This document shows, piece by piece, positions 9,097 to 22,487 of a DNA stretch of 64,000 nt; the first letter of the stretch is position 1; every line of letters begins with the position of its first letter. A program made the translations under genes and the position numbers. The stretch comes from Candidatus Krumholzibacteriota bacterium (lineage in GTDB: Bacteria; Krumholzibacteriota; Krumholzibacteriia; Krumholzibacteriales; Krumholzibacteriaceae), in NCBI GenBank assembly GCA_016932415.1, contig JAFGCX010000010.1:313641-377640 (forward strand), given 5' to 3'. The notes beneath the pieces are model-generated. The model was not told where the DNA came from. It ran no database searches and saw only the letters and a list, made by a program, of their open reading frames with translations.

Positions 9097-10374
<1,278 letters not shown>

Positions 10375-10405
10375 TCCTGTACCGGGCGCAGACAGATGAA
10401 GACTG

Positions 10406-10462
10406 CCGCAGCAGGCGATCGGGACGGGAAGATATCTGTTCCGTCACCGGCTGCGGTTTTTT
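10406..10462 (+). terminator. Probable intrinsic terminator of metK-ahcY
   Basis: CCGCAGC (10406-10412) can pair with GCTGCGG (10450-10456), enclosing an inner stem of GACGG with CCGTC. Six Ts follow directly at 10457-10462. The T-run overlaps the stop codon of the convergent GWxTD gene (10461-10463), so the two genes share this end. No matching T-run is present on the minus strand, so it appears to act in one direction. The outer loop is long, which lowers confidence. Confidence 0.55.
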
Positions 10463-12080
10463 ATTCAAGGATCGAAAAATTGCTTCGTTTTTCAGTCGTC
10501 TCCAGGGTCCTTCTGTCCATGATCGAGACGATCAGCTGGAATGTTCCCTTCCAGAGGTTTTCCGTGGCGATCTCAAGCCTCTGTATCTGAGTGGAACCAA
10601 AACCGGTAGTCTCGAATTTCGAACTGATCGCGGGAGGGGGTTCTTCAAGGACTGGTCCCTTTCTTCTTTTCGAAACGGGTATTATCCTGTAGTCGATCGT
10701 ATAGTACGCGAGCCCATCCCGGTCCGTGTCGAGACCGTACATCTCGAAATAGAAAGTCAGGGGAAAAGGTATCCTGTAGGCATGCAGTGGATGAGGGACT
10801 ACCTGAAGGTCTCCTTTCCGGAATTTCACCATGTCGTCCGTCTCGCTGATCGAACTGGCGAAAAGGATGTCGCTGAGCGAGAGTTTTCCATCCATCGAAG
10901 GAAGTTCTACGTTAGTCTGGAAGACGCCCTTCCGTCCGCTGCCGGTATCGGTGACTTCGATACCGATACGATAATATCCCGGCTTGAGAGCCATCGCGAG
11001 CTGTCCCGGAATATATCCCGGTCCCTGCCATATCGTCCCTCCGGTCTGGGAAGCGGATATGATGTCGCTCACCATGGCCACTTCGCGGAATTCGATATCC
11101 CTTACAAGCAGATCGAGCCTGACAGATGCGCTGAGGGTGTCCGCTCTCCGGTTGAACCTCACTTCATCCGACGGTATCTCGAAATTGAGTTCTATCCTTA
11201 TCGCTCCCTCGCCACCGCGGAACGAGAGGATATCAAAAAATACGGGAAGCCTGTCTCCACGAAGCTCGACCGAATAGATGACGGGGTTTTCCTTCAGGTA
11301 CTTGTGAAAATTATTCCTTCTCTTGTCGTTATTCTGGCTTTCGAGAGCTGATATCATATCCTGTCCGATCTCCGCCCTGACATCGGGATCAGCCATATAA
11401 TCGATCTTGTCGGGATTCAGGCCGGATATCGCTTCGATACTTGCCGGTGGGACGTTGACAAGTATCTCGGCCGGAGTATTCGTCAGGTACTGGGAGATCG
11501 CTTTCAGCTTGTCGAGCTGTTCTCTCCCGGTAAGGCCATATATCTCGAAAGCGTAAATGAATTCGCCGTTGAGGTTGAAATTCTGAAAAGCGACGATCAT
11601 ATCGAGTGACTTGTAATACCATATCTCGCCGGGAGGAATCATCCTGTAGAACCCAATATCGGCGGGGATCGATCTTCTCGTAGCCGGCATTCCCCACCGG
11701 ATCAGAGTCTCGCCCCTTTTATCCCAACCCGGAGCTTTTTTCATGGCGAAGAGTTCCCTGGCCAGAGCGACCCTCGTCTCATGCTCGATCCTTCTCTCAT
11801 TCGATGGTGTCGCTGGCGATGGATCGCGCTCGATCCAGAACCGGTCTATCCATTCAAGCCGTGCTTTGGGGCCGGGTTGCGACAGGAACTGCTTCATCTG
11901 GTGCCTGTTCATCGAATAGCGAAGCCCGAAATAAGTTACGAGTTCCCGGGTAGAGAGTTTTTTAAGGAGAGCGTTCTCGCCGTCGAATTCTTCTGCCCGA
12001 ACCGCTGAGGGGATGAAAATCTGAAGAGTCAGAAGGAAAATCATCAGACAGGGAACCAATCTGGGTAGATAACGCATCAT
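10461..12080 (-). CDS. GWxTD-domain exported protein
   Basis: The product (about 539 residues from the chosen start) has a signal peptide ending near AVRA and no other membrane segment. The region around GWDKRGETLIRWGMP, then IWYYKS and a Phe/Asn-rich strand, matches the GWxTD domain, named for its motif and found mostly in secreted proteins of FCB-type bacteria; its function is unknown. The C-terminal part looks like a beta-rich domain. The ATG at 12080 sits 4 bases after AAGGA and begins right at the signal peptide; an alternative start at 12137 overlaps lptG by 4 bases (ATGA). Either way it is the last gene of the lptF-lptG operon, which suggests a cell-envelope role. Confidence 0.75.
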   Translation of the reverse strand: MMRYLPRLVPCLMIFLLTLQIFIPSAVRAEEFDGENALLKKLSTRELVTYFGLRYSMNRHQMKQFLSQPGPKARLEWIDRFWIERDPSPATPSNERRIEHETRVALARELFAMKKAPGWDKRGETLIRWGMPATRRSIPADIGFYRMIPPGEIWYYKSLDMIVAFQNFNLNGEFIYAFEIYGLTGREQLDKLKAISQYLTNTPAEILVNVPPASIEAISGLNPDKIDYMADPDVRAEIGQDMISALESQNNDKRRNNFHKYLKENPVIYSVELRGDRLPVFFDILSFRGGEGAIRIELNFEIPSDEVRFNRRADTLSASVRLDLLVRDIEFREVAMVSDIISASQTGGTIWQGPGYIPGQLAMALKPGYYRIGIEVTDTGSGRKGVFQTNVELPSMDGKLSLSDILFASSISETDDMVKFRKGDLQVVPHPLHAYRIPFPLTFYFEMYGLDTDRDGLAYYTIDYRIIPVSKRRKGPVLEEPPPAISSKFETTGFGSTQIQRLEIATENLWKGTFQLIVSIMDRRTLETTEKRSNFSILE

Positions 12081-12133: not shown

Positions 12134-13213
12134 TCATCGGTTAGCCTTGCGCAGCAGTATTCCTCCGATCGAGATGAATATGATATTTCCGAACCAGGCG
12201 GCGATCGGTGGGGGGATCACTCCGCTATGGCCAAGCGACTGGCCGATCCTCAGGATACCGTAATAGGTAAAACTGATGAGCAGTGTAAGACCGAAACCTG
12301 TCGCCATCGATGTTTTCCTTTTCGCCGATGAAAGGGAAACTCCGATCATGGCAAATATAAAACTTGTAAAAGGAAAACTGAATTTAAAATAAAGATCGAC
12401 CATGTATTTGTCAACAGAACCGCCGCCTCTTCTTACTTTCTCGATATAATCGCGCAGTTCGTTGAAGTTCATCTCTTCCGGTTCGATCGCGTTCTTGGCG
12501 AAGTCTTCGGGTTTTTCGGGGAAATCATCTATCTCGAGCCTGGTAAAAGGGGTGACATCCTCTCCCGCTTCCTTGAACATGCGTACGGCTCCATCGACGA
12601 ATACCCAGCTTGTCCCGTTCCAGAAAGCTTTTCTCGCGTCTATCCTTTTTCTGAGATTGGATCCTTCATATTCCTGGACGATGATATTGACCATCATGCT
12701 CATCGAGATATCATATCTTTCGGCATAATAAGTCCTGTTGTTCTCTCCCTGGTAGTGCAGGTCGAGTTTGTATCTCAGCGACGATTTCTGTTTGGTCTTT
12801 CTGATCTCGACTTCCATGATCTCTTCGGCCTTGCGTTTCGAGACCGGCACTACGAGATCGCTCATGACGATCGAGAAAGCTGTGATTATCAATGATGAGA
12901 TGAATATAGGCCTGACCAGCCTGACAAGTGATGTCCCCGACGAGATAAAAGCGGTGAGTTCATTATCCCTTGAAAGTTTTCCCAGAGTGAATACCGACGC
13001 GAGAAGGACAGCGACCGGAGTGATAAGCATTATTATCCACGGGAGCTGGAAAAAGTAATACGATAATGCCTGGAGGACAGTCGCGTCTCCATCGATGAAT
13101 TTGTCGATCTTTTCGCTTATGTCGACAGTGATATAGATCGCGATAAAAGCGGCGATTCCGATATATATGTTGCGCCAGAAGGTCGAAAGCATATACCTGT
13201 CATTTATCTTCAT
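12134..13213 (-). CDS. lptG: LptG-type LPS export permease (YjgP/YjgQ family)
   Basis: This 359-residue membrane protein belongs to the LptF/LptG family, the inner-membrane pair that with the LptB ATPase pulls lipopolysaccharide from the membrane into the periplasmic bridge. Hydrophobic segments near residues 15-35, 55-75 and 98-120 and three more near the C-terminus frame a central periplasmic domain, the expected 3+3 layout. The sequence ELTAFISSGTSLVRLVRPI is the conserved coupling region. It is the second gene after another family member, 39 bases apart. Assignment as G rather than F rests on order and size only. Confidence 0.85.
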   Translation of the reverse strand: MKINDRYMLSTFWRNIYIGIAAFIAIYITVDISEKIDKFIDGDATVLQALSYYFFQLPWIIMLITPVAVLLASVFTLGKLSRDNELTAFISSGTSLVRLVRPIFISSLIITAFSIVMSDLVVPVSKRKAEEIMEVEIRKTKQKSSLRYKLDLHYQGENNRTYYAERYDISMSMMVNIIVQEYEGSNLRKRIDARKAFWNGTSWVFVDGAVRMFKEAGEDVTPFTRLEIDDFPEKPEDFAKNAIEPEEMNFNELRDYIEKVRRGGGSVDKYMVDLYFKFSFPFTSFIFAMIGVSLSSAKRKTSMATGFGLTLLISFTYYGILRIGQSLGHSGVIPPPIAAWFGNIIFISIGGILLRKANR

Positions 13214-13252
13214 CTTACCGCTTTCAAAAGAGGTCCGGATCCGGTTCCGACC

Positions 13253-14656
13253 TTACAATATAACGGCCCTTTTTTTCAGCCGCCACCTTTTACGCGGGTT
13301 GAACCTGTCCCAGTTTATTGTCTGTGATTCGCGCACTGTACTCCACAGGAGGAGCACCGCCGCGGAAAGGAGGATGAAGTTCGGAAGCCACATGGCAAGC
13401 CATGCTGGCATATACTGCCTGTCGGCGAATTTTTCCCCGCTGATGAGGAACATGTAGTAGACGAGGAAGAACAGTATGCTGAATCCAATCGATGTAGTCA
13501 TCCCCTTTTTGCCGGCCCTGATCGCGAGGGGGGCGCCGACAAGAACGAATATCAGGCAGCTGAAAGGGATCGAGAATTTCTTGTGTATCTCGACCTGGTA
13601 TTTGCTGATCAGGCGCTGGCACCCATCTATGATCCTCGCCGCGCTCTCGATGTCATGTTTCGTCTTTTCAACAGATACCGTTTCCGTTCTGGACGGACTT
13701 GTTTCCCCTCCAGGGGTGGTGATTCCCGACTCCTGCTTTACCGGTGCGAGCAGTTCCTTCAATTCAGGCACGGCGAGTGAAAGTTTCGAGATCATCGCCT
13801 GGGCGGCGTCTTTGTTCATCGCCATCCTGTAGCCCGAGGCTTCTTCCTGTTTTTCGGCTATCTTTTCCCGCATCATCCCCACATTCATTTCCCTGTCCGT
13901 TCTGTGCGTCCTTTCGGACCTGTCGAGACTTCTGTCGATGTCACGCATGTTGATGGTAAAGTTACTGAAGAGAGTCTTTCTGTACGTAGAGACATCTTTC
14001 GGGTCGGGCATCTCGTGAATTTCTCCATCCCTGAGTTCGAACCTCAGTACGTTGTCCTCATCAATGAATGACATCTTTCCACTGTTGGCCACGATCGTCG
14101 TCGGGATCCCGCCCTTTTGTTTCTGAAATATCTGGACATCCTTTATCTCGCCGGTCTTGTCGTCCTTTTCCCTGACAAGGATGGTATACCCCTTGATAGC
14201 GTCGCTGAATATATTTTCCCTTATTTCGAGAGTAGGTTTCATTTTCTGGATATCGATATAAAGATTCAGACACTTGTGGTTTGTCTCCGGAAGGATCGCG
14301 TTGTTATAGTAGATCAGGGCCGCGCCGAGAATTATAGACGCGATGAGGACGGGGATAATCATCCTGTAAAGGGAGATACCGCTTGACTTCATCGCTGTTA
14401 TCTCGTTTTCCGAAGCGAGTTGCCCGAAAGCCATCATCGTGGCGGGCATTACCGACATTGGTATAATTAATGCGAACATATGACCGAGACTGAGGATAAA
14501 GAATTCGAGGACGACAAGAAAATCGACCCCCTTGCCGATGAACAGACTGAGGTATCGGAAGATAAAGTCCATAACGAAGACAAAGGTTATGATAGCCAGT
14601 CCAAAGAAGTAGGGAGGAAGATGAAGCCTCAGGATATATCGATCAAGAATATGCAT
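13253..14656 (-). CDS. lptF: LptF-type LPS export permease with large soluble insertion
   Basis: This is a YjgP/YjgQ family permease of 467 residues, about 100 longer than E. coli LptF. The N-terminus (HILDRYILRLHLPPYFFG) and the ASENEITAMKSSGISLYRM coupling region are typical. The extra length is a charged, probably coiled-coil stretch around residues 240-360 (many Arg, Glu, Lys, Met; a TTPGGETSPSRTE linker) just before the C-terminal membrane segments, on the periplasmic side by family topology. It is the first gene of the minus-strand operon; a 328-base region separates it from the divergent sprA. Confidence 0.84.
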   Translation of the reverse strand: MHILDRYILRLHLPPYFFGLAIITFVFVMDFIFRYLSLFIGKGVDFLVVLEFFILSLGHMFALIIPMSVMPATMMAFGQLASENEITAMKSSGISLYRMIIPVLIASIILGAALIYYNNAILPETNHKCLNLYIDIQKMKPTLEIRENIFSDAIKGYTILVREKDDKTGEIKDVQIFQKQKGGIPTTIVANSGKMSFIDEDNVLRFELRDGEIHEMPDPKDVSTYRKTLFSNFTINMRDIDRSLDRSERTHRTDREMNVGMMREKIAEKQEEASGYRMAMNKDAAQAMISKLSLAVPELKELLAPVKQESGITTPGGETSPSRTETVSVEKTKHDIESAARIIDGCQRLISKYQVEIHKKFSIPFSCLIFVLVGAPLAIRAGKKGMTTSIGFSILFFLVYYMFLISGEKFADRQYMPAWLAMWLPNFILLSAAVLLLWSTVRESQTINWDRFNPRKRWRLKKRAVIL

Positions 14657-14984: not shown

Positions 14985-17900
14985 ATGAAGAAGACGGGAA
15001 AAATAATCGGCCGCGGAGATAGAAGGAGAGCGGCGGGAAAATATCTCTGCGTCCTGGCCCTCATTTTTCTGTCAGGTCCCGGAAGTACAGGTGCCCGTGC
15101 CCAGACTCTGAGGATCGATCTCTCGGAGGTCTCGAGACAGATAGAGATCCGCTACTACATGCAGGAGCATGGGACTCTTCCCCCCGAATATATTCTTCTG
15201 AACGGTATAGCCCTGTATCCGAATTTTCTCCAGGGCAGATTTGATCTGAGAAAACGCAAGTTGGAATATGATCCCATGACCAGGACGCTTTTCAGCTATG
15301 ACGTGCCTGGAGATCATGTTTTTACCGCCAGAGATGATCGCGACGGCCTCTATTTCAGGAGTTCCGAAAGGGATGTCAGGATACCCGGCATGAAGATCAC
15401 TCCCTCCTCGATCGATGAAAGAGCTGAATCGATAAGGAGAAAGGGCTTCAGGAAAACATGGGTCGACGAGGTCAGGTATAACCTTGAGATAGAAAGGGAG
15501 ACAAGAAGGGGCGGAGGACTGATCGATCTCAACATCCCGATAAAACTTCCAAAGCAGATAGAATGGCTCATAGGAGACGGAGAAGAGACGAGACTGACAG
15601 TCTCGGGAAAGGAAAAGATAACTATAGGCGGAACTTCAAGGTGGTGCGCCAACTGCCCCGTGACCGAGGGAAGGCCTTCGCAACAGAAATTTCCCGATCT
15701 TGACATGGAACAGCAACTGTCGGTCAACCTTCAGGGAAACATAGGAGAAAAGATACATGTGAAGATAGATCATTCCAGTATGGGCGGAGGAATGCAATCG
15801 ACCAACAGGGTCAGCCTTCGATATATCGGGCTGGAAGACGAGATAATCAAATCGATAGATATGGGAGATACTGACCTCACTCTGAGCGGCGCGCAGCTGA
15901 TCAGTCACTCGGGAGGATCAAGAGGCCTCTTTGGCGTAAAGGTGCAGGCGCAGATCGGGCTGATGGATCTGACAGTAATCGCGAGCAAGGAGGAGGGAGA
16001 GAACGCTTCCGGATCGTTCTCGGGTAGCGGGGGACAAAGCAGCGAATTCATGATCGCTGATTATAACTATGTAAAAAGGCAATATTTTTATTTTGAGACG
16101 CCAGGCGTGTCTTTCGATACGCCGAATATCGGATTCGTCGGGCATCCGGTCAAGTATTTCCCCGTGTACGGCGGGACGTTCAATGACATGATCGAAGTCT
16201 TCATCTCGCTCAAGACGTATGAACTGGACAATTACCAGGGAGGGGCAAAATTCAAACTCAAGGCCTGCGTCGATCCGGAAAACAACGGAATTACCGGTAA
16301 TGAGCCAGGGGCTTTCGAGGATTGGTACCGTCTCGCTAACGAAGGGGAGGATTATTCCCTTATAAAGTACATCGATTCAGCTTCGGAGTCGAAATATGTG
16401 GGGATAAGGCTCAATCAGCCTCTCGATACGGAAAGGTCTCTTGCCGTCCGGTATAAAAGCGATATGGGAACCTCTTCGACCGCTGATGACATATCTATCG
16501 GCGATTACGGTATCTATCCCTCAAACCCCGACCAGGTCCTCAGGGCGGAACTGATCTATCCTGTCGAGATGGATGAGGAAGACCTCACAGAGCCTCTTGA
16601 AAACAAGTTCCTTCATTCGACCTGGAACATGATGATGAGGAATGTCTATTCTCTTGGCTCGGCCGGTCTTGAGGGAGGAGCTTTGAAGGTCACTATAGAG
16701 AATGTCAGGACGATCGTGGGCACGAAGGATATCCAGGAGGAGACGGAACTGAGCTACCTGCGCATTTTCGGTCTCGACCAGGAGAATGTCGAGTCGCAAA
16801 GGATCCCGGACGGGTTGATCGACGACAGGAAGGGGATAATCGATTTCAACTACGGTTACGTGATGTTTCCCTGGTACGAGCCTTTCAACCTCAGGAGAGA
16901 TGACATAGCCTATTTCCTCGGTACAGGCGTAGACGAGATGGGTTACGTGATCCCTGATTATGTATCGGCCGATTCGGTGATGGCGCACCTTGTACTCAAT
17001 GACGGGATATATTCCGATTATGACAGCAACCCGAAGCACGAGTATAATATCGTCGTCGAGGCGACCAGCGGCAACAGGACTTTCCAGCTGAACGCCTTCG
17101 ATATAATCGAGGGTTCCGAGGTAGTCTCGGTAGATGGTGAAACGCTGATGAGAGGGAGCGATTATGACATCGATTATATCGGAGGTACGGTGAGTCTCAA
17201 GGGAGACCGACTGCTTACGATGTCTCCCGACGCGAAGGTGTCGATCGATTATCAGCACAAGTCCCTTATAGGCGGAGGGAAGAGATCGCTCCTGGGATTC
17301 AGTTCGAATATGAACCTTTCGACGAATTCAAGGTTAAACGCTTCCTTTCTGTATAATTCCATCGGATCACCGAAATACAATCCGCGGCTGGGCGATGAAC
17401 CGACGATGAATATGGCCGGTGACGTAAATGGATCGTTTCAACTCTCACCCGACTGGATGACTTCCGTTGCCAATCTTCTCCCGAGAGTCGATACCGACAC
17501 GAGGAGTTCACTGAACGTCAACGCTGAAGTCGCCGTGAGCATCCCCAATCCGAACAGGAAGGGAGAGGCGTTCGTCGATGACATGGAAGGCGTGGAGGAA
17601 TCAAGCCAGCTCAGCCTCATCAGGCGGATGTGGTATGAGGCGAGTCCTCCGGCAGATCCGGATAATCCCGGCGCATTCCTCGAATCTTTTGCCGGGGAGG
17701 ATGAATTCTACTGGTATAATCCGGTACGCGAATCGACATCTCTCCAGTACAAACTGACGACGAGTAAAAGGGATCTCAATCCGGGGCTGGATACGCGGGA
17801 GAACTCCAGCGTATCGTCCCTTTTCATAAAGGCGATCGATCCGCAGCCGGGCGAGTGGTGCGGTATCATGACCGGTATCCCCGGAGGACTCGATATCACG

Positions 17901-20900
17901 ACGGCGCAGTATCTCGAGATATGGGTCAACGATTACAATACTGACCCCGACGAGAGGGCAGGCAGGCTCCATATAGATTTCGGAAGGATCGACGAGGATT
18001 TCCACCAGCCGGAACTCGGAGAGGGGGATGACGAGAAAGAGACCGACTGGACGATCGAATATGACACCGGTTTTCCCGCCGATGACCCCGGTCTCGTCTA
18101 TCCGAAAGCATTCGATGGAAGTACGTGGGATTCCGTAAAAAAGATATACAGGGGTATCAACTCGAGAGTAGGGAACAATTACCATGATACGGAGGACCTG
18201 AACCGCAACGGGCGTGTCGATGAGAGAAACGAATACTATTCTCTGGTCCTCGATCTTTCCGATGAAGCTCTTATAGACGTGCAGAGGGATTTCGACAGGG
18301 ACAAATATTCCAGTTACTGGACAGACTCGGACAAGACGAGGGATGCCGGTGAGAATTACAGGATCAACGAAAAAAAAGCCTGGAGGATGTACCGCCTCGA
18401 TCTGTCAAAGGTCAAACTTCCGACGGGAGTCGCTCCGAGGCTCGATGCGATCCAGCATTTCAGGATCTGGGTGGAGGACCCGCAGGAACTTCAGGCCCGT
18501 ATCGAAGTGGACGGATCGATAGATCATCTCGTCGAGATCGCCGAGATGAAATTCATCGGCAACAGGTGGGAATTTGACAACATCAGGGATATCGCCGATG
18601 AGACCCGTATAATCCCGACTCCCGATATGCGTGTCAAGGTAGGGACGATAAACAACAAGGACAATCCTTCGATATATTCATCTCCCTACAAGGTGCAGGA
18701 GGAGGATGGAATAGACATCAGGGAACAGTCGCTGCTGATCGAGGTGGAGAATTTTGAAAGGGAAAGATCTTTCAGGCTGATGAAACGCTTCTACGGACAG
18801 GGAATGGATTTTCAGCAGTACAGGGAGATAGAGTTCTGGATCAGGGGAAACCAGGATCTTACCAGTCATGATGGCGATGTAGTCGATTTCTATCTTCAGT
18901 TCGCTTATGACAGCCTCAACTACTATGAAGTAGTCGTACCACTGACCAGTCAGAGGGCTGGCCGGTGGAACGCCGTCCACATAACTCTCAGCGATCTTAC
19001 CAACATGAAACTCAATCCTTCTGGTGGCGATATCACCGAGATCCTGATACATGACGCCTCCGATCCATCAAAAAGTTATCAGGCTAGATTGAGGGGAGAC
19101 CCTACCCTGTTCAATGTACGGTTTCTCTATTCGGGATTAAGGAACAGGACAGGTATCATGATCCCGAGCGGAGAGGCATGGTTCAACGATATCGTAGTCG
19201 ACAATGTGAGAAAAGACATTGACCACGCCGAGAGACTCAGCGTCTCGACAAACTTCGGAGGGATATTCTCTCTGTCAGGCAACTGGCAGCGCACCGGTCC
19301 GGAGTTCAGGTCGCTCAACCAGAAGAGGGGAAGCGGGGTGACGACCAACAGCTATTCGCTGAGCGCGAAGACAGAGGTCAATCATATCATCCCGACAGGG
19401 GGGTTCCAGCTTCCCGTGTCGCTGAAGTACGGAGCATCGACCTCGAAACCGAAGTATCTCCCGCAGAAAGATGTCGAGATAACCGATGCCGCTGTTCAGG
19501 ACAGCCTCAGGTCGGTCAACAACAGTGTCAATTTCAGCGTCGCGATGAGCCGCCGGGGATCGAAGAATATTATTATGAAGAATCTCTTTGATAATCTCAA
19601 AGCGGGGATGAGCTATTCAAAGAGCGCCAGTTTTTCGCCGACGGCGAAGGATACCTCCTGGACTCTCGCCGGAAACGCCACTTACCAGCTTCAGTTCAGA
19701 AAGGACAGGGAATTGAAGCTCTTCAAGGGGATAAAGTGGAGATACTGGCTTACAGATTTTTCGTTCAGGGCGTCAGGGGCGCGGTCTGTCAGGAGAGGGT
19801 ATTCATATTCGAACAGCGAGTTTGTCAAGCGGCCCGATTTTTATTCATGCCACTGGGATAACGAGATGAGTACCGTCTATCAGCCTTTTGAATCGATCAA
19901 ATTCAACTACCGGAGGACGGAGAAACGCAATCTCGCCGTTGAAAATATGATGTACGGCGTCGATATAGGGATACTGACCTCGTTTATCCAGACCCTGAAC
20001 ATGAGCTATCAGCCCAAGGGTGGGGTCTTTCTGATCTCCCAGTTCAATCCGAGATTTGAATATAACACAAAATACGAGGAAGACCTGAAACCAGGGATAA
20101 GACAGGCGGAAGATCCGGAAGGGACGAGGGATGTCTACGCGACGCGGGGAATCAATGTCGTGTTCGATGTCGATGTCGGCAAATACGCGATGGGATTCGG
20201 AAAGATGGTCAAGATTATCGGGCAGGAGGAGGAGATCTCGGCGAGAAAGGTGATGAACCAGAGGGCGTCCCACGAAGAGAGAAAATCCCAGTTCGAGGAG
20301 ATGCTCAAGAATAAGAAGACAAGTTCGGACAAGGGCGTCGCCGGGGAACAGGTCTCTCTCGACCCGAATCCCGGTTCCACTCAGCCTGTCGATCCGACTG
20401 CCGCGGGAGGGCAGACAGCTGAGACTGAAGAGAAAAAAGGAACGTTTGCCGATCTCGGCCTTAAACGTCCGCGCGCCGGGCTGGGGGACAAAAAAGAAGC
20501 ATCATCGCCGGACAGCATGGCGGTCGACAGCACTTTGACCGCGGACAGTAAAGAACAGGGAAAGAAGGCGGCTGACCCGATGCTTCTGTTCAGGCATCTT
20601 CTGCGGTTTCTCGGGCGGGTCGATCCGGTCAAGAGCACTTTCAAGATAGACAGGCGCAGCCAGTTCGAACGCCTTTACGAGAGGGCCGGTATGGGGTATC
20701 AGTTCGGATTCGCGTCGAGAAGCGGTACGGAAGGAGCGTTGGGAGGCCCGGACGCCGATCCTCTGAGGGAGAACACTGGCATCACTCTGAATCTCAGGTC
20801 GGGATTCGATATCACATCCAACCTCTCGGCCAATCTCAATTTCAATATGTCGAAACGCGAGGATATGTCATATTCAAGGAGATCGGAAGCGCAGGATCTG

Positions 20901-21467
20901 ACATGGCCCGACGTGAACCTCAACTGGAGAGGTCTGCAGGAGTGGGCCATCCTGAGAAGGTATATTGAGAGAAGCGATCTGAATATCAGCTATATAGAGA
21001 GGACCTCGAAAAAACTCGGTGAAGAGACGAACGCCTTCCAGATCACTCCGAACTGGAATCTGAGATGGAAAAACAGCCTGACATCGAATTTCTCGGTGGC
21101 TTACTCGAAAAAAACCACCATTGACAGGGGTCAGGAACTGTGGGATAAAAGCTGGTCGGCTAATCTTGAACTGAAGTATGATATCAAGGGGACCAAAGGA
21201 ATCGGAATGCCCCTGCCATTCCTCAATAAAAAGAAACTCAAGTTCGAAAGCGCCCTTACGACGGTCCTCAACGTCAGCTACAGCAGGGCGGAAAGATATA
21301 ACGTTCCTCCGACTTCGACTCTCTCCATCTATCCGAGATTCACTTATACATTCAGCAGGAACGTGTCGGGAAACCTCGCTCTCGGTTACAAGAGGAGTGC
21401 TGGAGGTATCTACGGTTACATCAATCATGAGGTGAGCTTGCATGCCACGGCGGAATTTAAGTTCTAG
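14985..21467 (+). CDS. sprA: SprA/Sov-like giant outer-membrane translocon protein
   Basis: This 2160-residue protein resembles SprA/Sov, the very large outer-membrane beta-barrel through which type IX secretion substrates cross in Bacteroidetes (about 2400-2500 residues there). It starts with a signal peptide ending ARA at residue 39, so mature protein would begin with Gln40. The body is rich in alternating hydrophobic/polar strands; a Cys pair (WCANC, near residue 220) precedes a conserved VNLQG-type repeat region. Around residues 1755-1885 there is a disordered, charged, Pro/Ser-rich insertion. The last residues (EVSLHATAEFKF) end in Phe like an outer-membrane barrel. Its stop lies inside the following cyclase gene. 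No other type IX component is present in the window, so secretion function is inferred from similarity. Confidence 0.82.
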   Translation: MKKTGKIIGRGDRRRAAGKYLCVLALIFLSGPGSTGARAQTLRIDLSEVSRQIEIRYYMQEHGTLPPEYILLNGIALYPNFLQGRFDLRKRKLEYDPMTRTLFSYDVPGDHVFTARDDRDGLYFRSSERDVRIPGMKITPSSIDERAESIRRKGFRKTWVDEVRYNLEIERETRRGGGLIDLNIPIKLPKQIEWLIGDGEETRLTVSGKEKITIGGTSRWCANCPVTEGRPSQQKFPDLDMEQQLSVNLQGNIGEKIHVKIDHSSMGGGMQSTNRVSLRYIGLEDEIIKSIDMGDTDLTLSGAQLISHSGGSRGLFGVKVQAQIGLMDLTVIASKEEGENASGSFSGSGGQSSEFMIADYNYVKRQYFYFETPGVSFDTPNIGFVGHPVKYFPVYGGTFNDMIEVFISLKTYELDNYQGGAKFKLKACVDPENNGITGNEPGAFEDWYRLANEGEDYSLIKYIDSASESKYVGIRLNQPLDTERSLAVRYKSDMGTSSTADDISIGDYGIYPSNPDQVLRAELIYPVEMDEEDLTEPLENKFLHSTWNMMMRNVYSLGSAGLEGGALKVTIENVRTIVGTKDIQEETELSYLRIFGLDQENVESQRIPDGLIDDRKGIIDFNYGYVMFPWYEPFNLRRDDIAYFLGTGVDEMGYVIPDYVSADSVMAHLVLNDGIYSDYDSNPKHEYNIVVEATSGNRTFQLNAFDIIEGSEVVSVDGETLMRGSDYDIDYIGGTVSLKGDRLLTMSPDAKVSIDYQHKSLIGGGKRSLLGFSSNMNLSTNSRLNASFLYNSIGSPKYNPRLGDEPTMNMAGDVNGSFQLSPDWMTSVANLLPRVDTDTRSSLNVNAEVAVSIPNPNRKGEAFVDDMEGVEESSQLSLIRRMWYEASPPADPDNPGAFLESFAGEDEFYWYNPVRESTSLQYKLTTSKRDLNPGLDTRENSSVSSLFIKAIDPQPGEWCGIMTGIPGGLDITTAQYLEIWVNDYNTDPDERAGRLHIDFGRIDEDFHQPELGEGDDEKETDWTIEYDTGFPADDPGLVYPKAFDGSTWDSVKKIYRGINSRVGNNYHDTEDLNRNGRVDERNEYYSLVLDLSDEALIDVQRDFDRDKYSSYWTDSDKTRDAGENYRINEKKAWRMYRLDLSKVKLPTGVAPRLDAIQHFRIWVEDPQELQARIEVDGSIDHLVEIAEMKFIGNRWEFDNIRDIADETRIIPTPDMRVKVGTINNKDNPSIYSSPYKVQEEDGIDIREQSLLIEVENFERERSFRLMKRFYGQGMDFQQYREIEFWIRGNQDLTSHDGDVVDFYLQFAYDSLNYYEVVVPLTSQRAGRWNAVHITLSDLTNMKLNPSGGDITEILIHDASDPSKSYQARLRGDPTLFNVRFLYSGLRNRTGIMIPSGEAWFNDIVVDNVRKDIDHAERLSVSTNFGGIFSLSGNWQRTGPEFRSLNQKRGSGVTTNSYSLSAKTEVNHIIPTGGFQLPVSLKYGASTSKPKYLPQKDVEITDAAVQDSLRSVNNSVNFSVAMSRRGSKNIIMKNLFDNLKAGMSYSKSASFSPTAKDTSWTLAGNATYQLQFRKDRELKLFKGIKWRYWLTDFSFRASGARSVRRGYSYSNSEFVKRPDFYSCHWDNEMSTVYQPFESIKFNYRRTEKRNLAVENMMYGVDIGILTSFIQTLNMSYQPKGGVFLISQFNPRFEYNTKYEEDLKPGIRQAEDPEGTRDVYATRGINVVFDVDVGKYAMGFGKMVKIIGQEEEISARKVMNQRASHEERKSQFEEMLKNKKTSSDKGVAGEQVSLDPNPGSTQPVDPTAAGGQTAETEEKKGTFADLGLKRPRAGLGDKKEASSPDSMAVDSTLTADSKEQGKKAADPMLLFRHLLRFLGRVDPVKSTFKIDRRSQFERLYERAGMGYQFGFASRSGTEGALGGPDADPLRENTGITLNLRSGFDITSNLSANLNFNMSKREDMSYSRRSEAQDLTWPDVNLNWRGLQEWAILRRYIERSDLNISYIERTSKKLGEETNAFQITPNWNLRWKNSLTSNFSVAYSKKTTIDRGQELWDKSWSANLELKYDIKGTKGIGMPLPFLNKKKLKFESALTTVLNVSYSRAERYNVPPTSTLSIYPRFTYTFSRNVSGNLALGYKRSAGGIYGYINHEVSLHATAEFKF

Positions 21468-22374
21468 GAGATTTCCAGGCTTTCAGATGGCAGCTCTTTT
21501 TCTCTCTGCCGCGCTGGCGATAAGCGCGTGTGGAAGTAACGATCCTCCCGTGTTCGATGCCGATAACGCTTTTGATCTTCTCGAGCAGCAATGCGGGATT
21601 GGGCCCCGGTTTCCCGGAAGCCCGGAGCACAGGATGCTGCAGAGGTACCTGGCATCCAGCCTGGAAAGATACGGAGCGAATCTTTCGCTGCAGCCGTTCG
21701 AGGGGATCCTCAGCAGCGGAGATACTCTTCGACTGGTAAATATCATCGGTAACTACAATATGAAATCAGGCAAGAGGATAATGCTTGGAGCCCATTATGA
21801 TACAAGGCCTGTCGCCGACATGGATCCCGATCCGGCAAACAGGGATATTCCTATAACAGGAGCTAACGATGGGGCCAGCGGAGTCGCCGTTCTTCTTGAA
21901 ATAGCGAGGCTTCTGGGTGAACACCCTCCTCCCGTCGGAGTCGATATTATACTTTTTGACGGAGAAGATTATGGAGAAGCGGGAAAGGCGGAGGATTTCT
22001 GCCTCGGATCGGCATATTTCGCATCCAACACCCGTGGATACATGCCTTTCGCGGCGATCGTGATCGATATGATTGGAGATTCGGATCTTGTAATCAGGCA
22101 GGAGGGATTTTCGCGAGCGGCGGCGCCTGACCTGTATGAAGAGATATTCGCGATCGCTGATGAGCTTGGCCTGCGGCAGTTCCGCAGGGAAAAGGGTCAG
22201 ATGATCATAGACGACCACCTGCCGTTGATACAGGCGGGATTCAGAGCGGTCGACCTGATCGATTTTGATTACGATCACTGGCATACTCTCGAGGACACGC
22301 CGGACAAGTGTTCCCGGGAAAGCCTCGACGCTGTGGGAAGGGTCCTTATAGAGTTCATCTGGCGGCAGAAATAG
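21442..22374 (+). CDS. M28-family glutaminyl-peptide cyclotransferase, lipoprotein
   Basis: The 310-residue protein has a lipoprotein signal (hydrophobic segment, then AISAC with Cys30). Its M28 fold has HYDTRP, GANDGASG, FDGEDYG, VIDMIGD, the DDHLPL block and a C-terminal WHTLEDT. The DDH.P and WHT(x)(D/E)D(T/N) pattern fits glutaminyl cyclases, which convert N-terminal Gln into pyroglutamate, better than M28 aminopeptidases. A strong ribosome site (GAGGTGA) precedes the ATG at 21442, inside sprA, giving a 26-base overlap and likely translational coupling. The expected place of action is the periplasm, on freshly cleaved exported proteins. An aminopeptidase role is the main alternative. Confidence 0.8.
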   Translation: MPRRNLSSRRFPGFQMAALFLSAALAISACGSNDPPVFDADNAFDLLEQQCGIGPRFPGSPEHRMLQRYLASSLERYGANLSLQPFEGILSSGDTLRLVNIIGNYNMKSGKRIMLGAHYDTRPVADMDPDPANRDIPITGANDGASGVAVLLEIARLLGEHPPPVGVDIILFDGEDYGEAGKAEDFCLGSAYFASNTRGYMPFAAIVIDMIGDSDLVIRQEGFSRAAAPDLYEEIFAIADELGLRQFRREKGQMIIDDHLPLIQAGFRAVDLIDFDYDHWHTLEDTPDKCSRESLDAVGRVLIEFIWRQK

Positions 22375-22460
22375 GAAGACATATTAAAATCGCTTTCCAG
22401 GTCCGGTACGATTTCACTTGATTTTTAACACTTTTTCAACTAGGTATTAGTGGATGTTGA

Positions 22461-22487
22461 TGGGGCGGATGCCCCATTTATTTTTAT
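22461..22487 (+). terminator. Intrinsic terminator or attenuator upstream of rimP
   Basis: TGGGGC (22461-22466) and GCCCCA (22471-22476) form a perfect 6-bp stem with a GGAT tetraloop, followed by the T-rich tail TTTATTTTTAT. It lies 84 bases past the cyclase stop and 30 bases before rimP. It may end sprA transcription; if the rimP promoter lies upstream it would instead attenuate the translation operon. Confidence 0.68.

Follow-up and report, generated by a model that had tools for sequence, protein, structure and literature searches.

The gene for SprA, the outer-membrane translocon of the T9SS, overlaps a gene with the residues of a type II glutaminyl cyclase (QC) in the window, by which we mean the whole 64,000-nucleotide stretch of a Candidatus Krumholzibacteriota bacterium analyzed here. 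We consider it moderately probable that the two genes represent an old T9SS-QC operon and that, of the exported proteins, only a minority are substrates of the cyclase, with SprA one of them in this organism. The QC and SprA are each of a known kind; their overlapping union is unreported in the literature we searched, and a search of open-access papers for a link between sprA and QC returned no earlier report.

In the mechanism that we propose, sprA and QC would be a two-gene operon of the T9SS module, joined by translational coupling. SprA would be exported by Sec and cut after ARA39 by signal peptidase I, and the periplasmic lipoprotein QC would turn the exposed Gln40 into pyroglutamate, which should shield this end of SprA from aminopeptidases. 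The enzyme may also cap a minority of other exports that expose Gln, such as PorV, some T9SS cargo, and a few others, and its tie would be to the T9SS and envelope proteins in general rather than to SprA alone. This tie probably goes far back in the FCB group, and the genes would since have separated in Bacteroidota and Ignavibacteria.

The gene pair and its neighborhood

The assignment of sprA comes from a profile search, in which its product scored 470 bits against the equivalog TIGR04189 (cutoff, 200 bits), and from phmmer, which matched it to Flavobacterium SprA structures (6h3i, E 1e-31). The N-terminus of SprA reads MKKTGKIIGRGDRRRAAGKYLCVLALIFLSGPGSTGARA up to the predicted cut and QTLRIDL after it, with the codon of Ala39 at 15099-15101. 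All signal peptide calls in this work were made with a home-made, crude predictor, and all N-termini are predictions. The top-scoring site of this simple predictor in SprA lies between ARA and Q. In an alignment of near relatives, the position of Gln40 is Q, D, or G, and a conserved motif, [Q/D/G][T/S/R][L/F]x[I/V/L/F][D/S]L, opens at the predicted mature start. Since the best predictor site coincides with this conserved start, signal peptidase likely cleaves SprA before Gln40, as the sequence-only reading had proposed.

Table 1. Features of the sprA-QC region, in positions of the window
Feature	Coordinates	Strand	Basis
Two divergent lptF/lptG genes, upstream; conserved neighborhood	12134..14656	-	LptF_LptG Pfam matches
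sprA, T9SS outer-membrane translocon gene, 2160 aa	14985..21467	+	TIGR04189 and phmmer
SprA signal peptide, predicted Sec/SPI, residues 1-39, ending ARA	14985..15101	+	Own predictor (best site) and homologue alignment of mature start
Gln40 codon, predicted first residue of mature SprA	15102..15104	+	Sequence
Shine-Dalgarno-like GAGGTGA within sprA, 6 nt 5' of QC ATG	21429..21435	+	Sequence
Type II glutaminyl cyclase (QC) lipoprotein, predicted, 310 aa	21442..22374	+	Peptidase_M28 2.6e-32; PDB matches; diagnostic residues
sprA/QC overlap, 26 bp; same predicted overlap in 8 relatives	21442..21467	+	Sequence
Predicted lipidated Cys30, after ISA and before Gly-Ser	21529..21531	+	Sequence; own predictor SPII
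D143-G144, zinc ligand and QC-type Gly (Asn in three M28 paralogues)	21868..21873	+	Residue comparison
E175-D176, catalytic Glu and bacteroidal-QC zinc ligand Asp (= PgAsp183)	21964..21969	+	Residue comparison
W280-H281, QC-type Trp and zinc ligand His (paralogues: Tyr-His)	22279..22284	+	Residue comparison
Terminator-like hairpin, T-rich tail, between QC and rimP (22517)	22459..22478	+	Consensus scan; total matches in the region not above shuffles

The overlap of 26 bases given in the earlier reading was confirmed. Judging by predicted starts, QC begins at -26 from the end of sprA in the window and in eight relatives (families f1 and f2) and at -11 in eleven genomes of family f5; overlap length is thus fixed within lineages, at -26 or -11. 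The order of divergent lptF/lptG, sprA, and QC is common to relatives, KSB1, and one Gemmatimonadetes locus. On the other side, prmA (ribosomal protein L11 methyltransferase) lies 3' of QC in sprA-linked and sprA-unlinked lineages alike. The QC-prmA pair occurs at linked loci of KSB1, Neomarinimicrobiota, and Calditrichia (L117, L127, and L148 among the prmA cases) and at unlinked loci of Ignavibacteriae (L128 and L120).

The genome (3.1 Mb, 95% complete) carries several T9SS markers: SprA, PorV, a PorU-like protein, and CTD cargo, with 68 Por_Secre_tail (CTD) matches. PorV adjoins the PorU-like C25 protein (locus G000:C20:253920-256969). A search of this 95% complete genome for GldM with PF12081 (GldM_1st) gave no match, which may reflect divergence or an assembly gap, so its T9SS can be called only putatively complete. 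One CTD protein (G000:C27:46351-46596) sits within an open frame of 3925 residues and could be a giant T9SS cargo. SprA of near full length (about 2600-2900 bits) is also found in genomes of Parabacteroides, Bacteroides, Porphyromonadaceae, and Muribaculaceae (G076-G079), groups that are often without a classical T9SS.

The predicted glutaminyl cyclase and its type I counterpart

Pfam and NCBIfam place the second protein only in M28/aminopeptidase families, which would suit an M28 aminopeptidase or another hydrolase with no cyclase activity. We regard this as extremely improbable. Among solved structures, its nearest matches are enzymes of Bacteroidetes (4fuu/7d1d, 3gux, 6qql, 7cje, and 6qro). 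Taudte et al. changed the annotation of 4fuu and 3tc8 to QC and named the residues that tell a QC from an aminopeptidase (PMC7948796); the best matches of the window protein are re-annotated QCs. Its zinc ligands D143, D176, and H281 and the catalytic E175 are all present, as in a bacteroidal type II QC, with the bacteroidal ligand Asp (D176) standing in place of Glu. Gly follows the first Asp (G144) and Trp precedes the His (W280), where aminopeptidases have Asn and Tyr, and R122, P123, and D126 of the QC set are there as well. The only listed difference from the set is at the equivalent of the active-site PgTrp193, a peripheral substrate-site residue and not a ligand: the Trp is absent from the window QC, which has Phe187 in an alignment to 4fuu, keeping the aromatic nature.

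Three M28 paralogues in the same genome served as an internal control. All three have Asp-Asn and EE, and at the last ligand they have Tyr-His or no Trp. With the QC residues present in the window enzyme and the aminopeptidase set absent, aminopeptidase identity was rejected. The N-terminal lipoprotein anchor is also there, with ISA directly before Cys30; the lipobox is absent from the QC of f4-f6 relatives. The description of the gene in the sequence-only reading, a lipoprotein with glutaminyl cyclase motifs, therefore stands, and from its residues we predict a bacteroidal type II QC with cyclase activity. D143, E175, and D176 are invariant in 13 aligned relatives, and so is the rest of the QC residue set except R122, D126, and H281, which are lost only in L084 (G026). 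In that QC (9819-10715), the zinc His has changed to Asp (H281), with R122 and D126 also lost; a type I QC was looked for in the G026 genome, and none was found. By its residues, the L084 protein is probably inactive or of changed function.

Relatives lacking the type II enzyme bear on the same question. The plant-type QC, PF05096, is present in each of three near-complete genomes without type II QC (G030, G033, and G037), with E values of 1e-72 to 1e-86. Among near-complete relatives, PF05096 occurs in 3/3 without type II QC versus 2/34 with it (G007 and G052; Fisher p = 0.0013), and among all 58 in 3/6 versus 5/52 (p = 0.029), a comparison that was conceived once the first three cases were known and was later widened to the full 58 genomes. 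Type I has apparently taken the place of type II in G030, G033, and G037 by non-orthologous replacement. There may have been only two replacement events, since G030 and G037 belong to the same family. A type I QC in relatives without a linked QC is what would be expected if the function is cyclization, and this complementary occurrence argues further against a hydrolase.

Linkage across genomes and the proteins that expose glutamine

SprA was found in 58/58 relatives, 53 of them above the family cutoff, and type II QC was found in 52/58. We examined 40 same-class sprA loci in addition to the window, 41 altogether. QC is present at 37 of them, directly after sprA at 35 and about 4.6 kb downstream at 2 (family f3). 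Among these 41 loci, no QC lies by sprA in G030, G033, or G037, and the contig of G044 ends inside sprA.

A wider sample, taken by scanning named genomes, yielded 80 loci. Directly upstream of QC we found sprA in 19/19 Neomarinimicrobiota, 2 KSB1, 2/2 Zixibacteria, 4/6 Calditrichota, and 2/4 Gemmatimonadota loci, the remaining two Gemmatimonadota genomes giving no SprA match. In the sampled Bacteroidota, Ignavibacteria, and Fibrobacteria, sprA does not precede QC but lies elsewhere in the genome; in Armatimonadota with QC, linkage is absent, and a SprA search gave no match. In a QC tree, one linked locus that is labeled Bacteroidota (L112) clusters with loci from Calditrichota and KSB1. The QC of L129, from a MAG labeled Candidatus Krumholzibacteriia, is nested among the same-class relatives, in keeping with a most likely Krumholzibacteriota origin of the window. 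Linkage changes at least 11 times on this tree, and linked loci fall to either side of its midpoint; the tree has no root, and gain and loss of linkage are inseparable on it. Because the same order recurs in many phyla, chance adjacency of sprA and QC is excluded, and the arrangement appears to be old. The pairing thus recurs more widely than had been proposed.

We then considered which proteins expose Gln. With the crude predictor, applied to about 0.9 Mb of the genome, Gln stands at +1 in 9/72 predicted SPI substrates (about 12%). These split into 5/51 non-cargo proteins and 4/21 CTD cargo, for which N-termini were read for roughly half the cargo only. Gln makes up 2.5% of the following mature segment, so it is enriched at +1 in this genome, yet far below the Bacteroidetes mean of 71% (PMC5837995). 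In more than 99% of Bacteroidetes species, Gln at +1 exceeds 48%, the threshold of the Q-rule (PMC5837995). In control sets, the predictor found Gln in 4/13 non-cargo proteins of mixed Bacteroidota/Ignavibacteria loci, which implies that it underestimates, and in 0/13 from E. coli. Even so, 9/72 is uncommon enough to reject a genome-wide Q-rule of the Bacteroidetes type here. A strict rule that T9SS cargo start with Gln was also rejected on the 4/21 in the own genome, though it is 5/8 in Neomarinimicrobiota loci.

Some exports do share the residue. The best PorV of the genome is predicted to have Gln first, and several CTD cargo and a few other exported or periplasmic proteins are predicted to expose it too. 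The other signal peptides predicted for the window would leave E, G, or V at the exposed end and never Q, in agreement with the earlier reading. In the window's family, Gln is at +1 of SprA in 7/10 unambiguous genomes versus 13/106 other SPI proteins (p = 1.4e-4), a test in which the orthologues are not independent and the SprA residues were read by eye. Across the class, SprA has Gln in 15/35 readable N-termini. In family f5, SprA starts with Asp (ADP...) in 9/11 genomes read, and the residues of the linked QC are intact. Within it, at loci L096-L104, SprA begins with Asp-Pro in most genomes beside a QC that keeps its catalytic residues.

The sequence-only reading had seen an enzyme next to its likely substrate, with an effect that may be specific. 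In its strict form, this means that the two genes are paired because SprA is the specific substrate, with an enzyme and its single main substrate encoded together. Gln40 itself, the 15/35 same-class N-termini, and the low general use of Gln at +1 would fit a dedicated enzyme. The f5 genomes keep the pair with an Asp-starting SprA, so the adjacency cannot rest solely on the N-terminus of SprA; moreover, PorV, several CTD cargo, and periplasmic proteins expose Gln as well. We therefore consider a QC dedicated to SprA very unlikely. Of the specific effect once suspected, what holds is that Gln at +1 is uncommon and that SprA has it; exclusivity to SprA does not. Cleavage elsewhere in SprA, an aminopeptidase identity, or an absence of linkage in other genomes was in no case found.

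The same f5 loci favor another explanation, in which only inherited gene order and translational coupling hold the genes together and QC serves the periplasm as a general cyclase, functionally unconnected to the T9SS. That an unrelated housekeeping gene, prmA, adjoins QC with or without sprA also fits, as does the occurrence of QC without sprA in Armatimonadota. However, survival of an overlap across several phyla would be unusual for unrelated genes, and the enrichment of Gln at +1 of SprA in the window's family, subject to the non-independence of its orthologues, also counts against it. We judge this explanation unlikely, though less so than a dedicated enzyme.

Implications and comparison with known systems

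Recurrence of the pair in several little-studied phyla suggests an old link between the T9SS and capping that is independent of the first residue of SprA. Counted in favor of an old T9SS-QC operon is P. gingivalis, in which Gln is the first residue of 86% of T9SS proteins and the QC is an essential enzyme (PMC10653852). Counted against it are the Asp-starting SprA of f5, the 4/21 CTD cargo with Gln, the lack of a GldM match, and the report that mutating the N-terminal Gln of gingipain did not generally affect T9SS targeting (PMC5837995).

Bochtler et al. noted in 2018 that T9SS and high Gln usage co-occur, and their data on gingipains spoke against a control of T9SS targeting by pyroglutamate (PMC5837995). 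The overlapping sprA-QC pair across several phyla provides independent genomic evidence for a link between the T9SS and pyroglutamate. Tentatively, the operon could be an ancestral T9SS module of the FCB group, with capping having arisen with the translocon and the Q-rule being a later expansion after QC left; we hold this to be possible, and if true, it would explain the noted but unexplained co-occurrence. The places to look are the N-termini of SprA and PorV, and natural experiments are offered by lineages whose SprA has Asp first, by those that have lost the linked QC, and by those that have the unrelated type I enzyme in its stead.

Among known enzymes, the QC of P. gingivalis (PG2157) is likewise a type II single-zinc lipoprotein with the same ligands (PMC5837995, PMC7948796, PMC10653852); it modifies the N-terminal Gln left by signal peptidase I cleavage, and a T9SS is in the same cell. 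Unlike the window gene, PG2157 is first in an operon that continues with PG2158 and hemG rather than with sov/sprA (PMC10653852); about 77% of SPI substrates there have Gln at +1 versus about 12% here, and PgTrp193 stands where the window QC has Phe187. The plant-type, beta-propeller type I QC (PF05096) carries out the same reaction according to the literature but has an unrelated fold, and it is found in relatives without a sprA-linked QC. The translocon belongs to the same family as the known SprA/Sov (TIGR04189; 6h3i), above the equivalog cutoff, in a genome with PorV, a PorU-like protein, and CTD proteins; it differs in that GldM was not detected, in lying outside Bacteroidota, and in forming an overlapping pair with QC.
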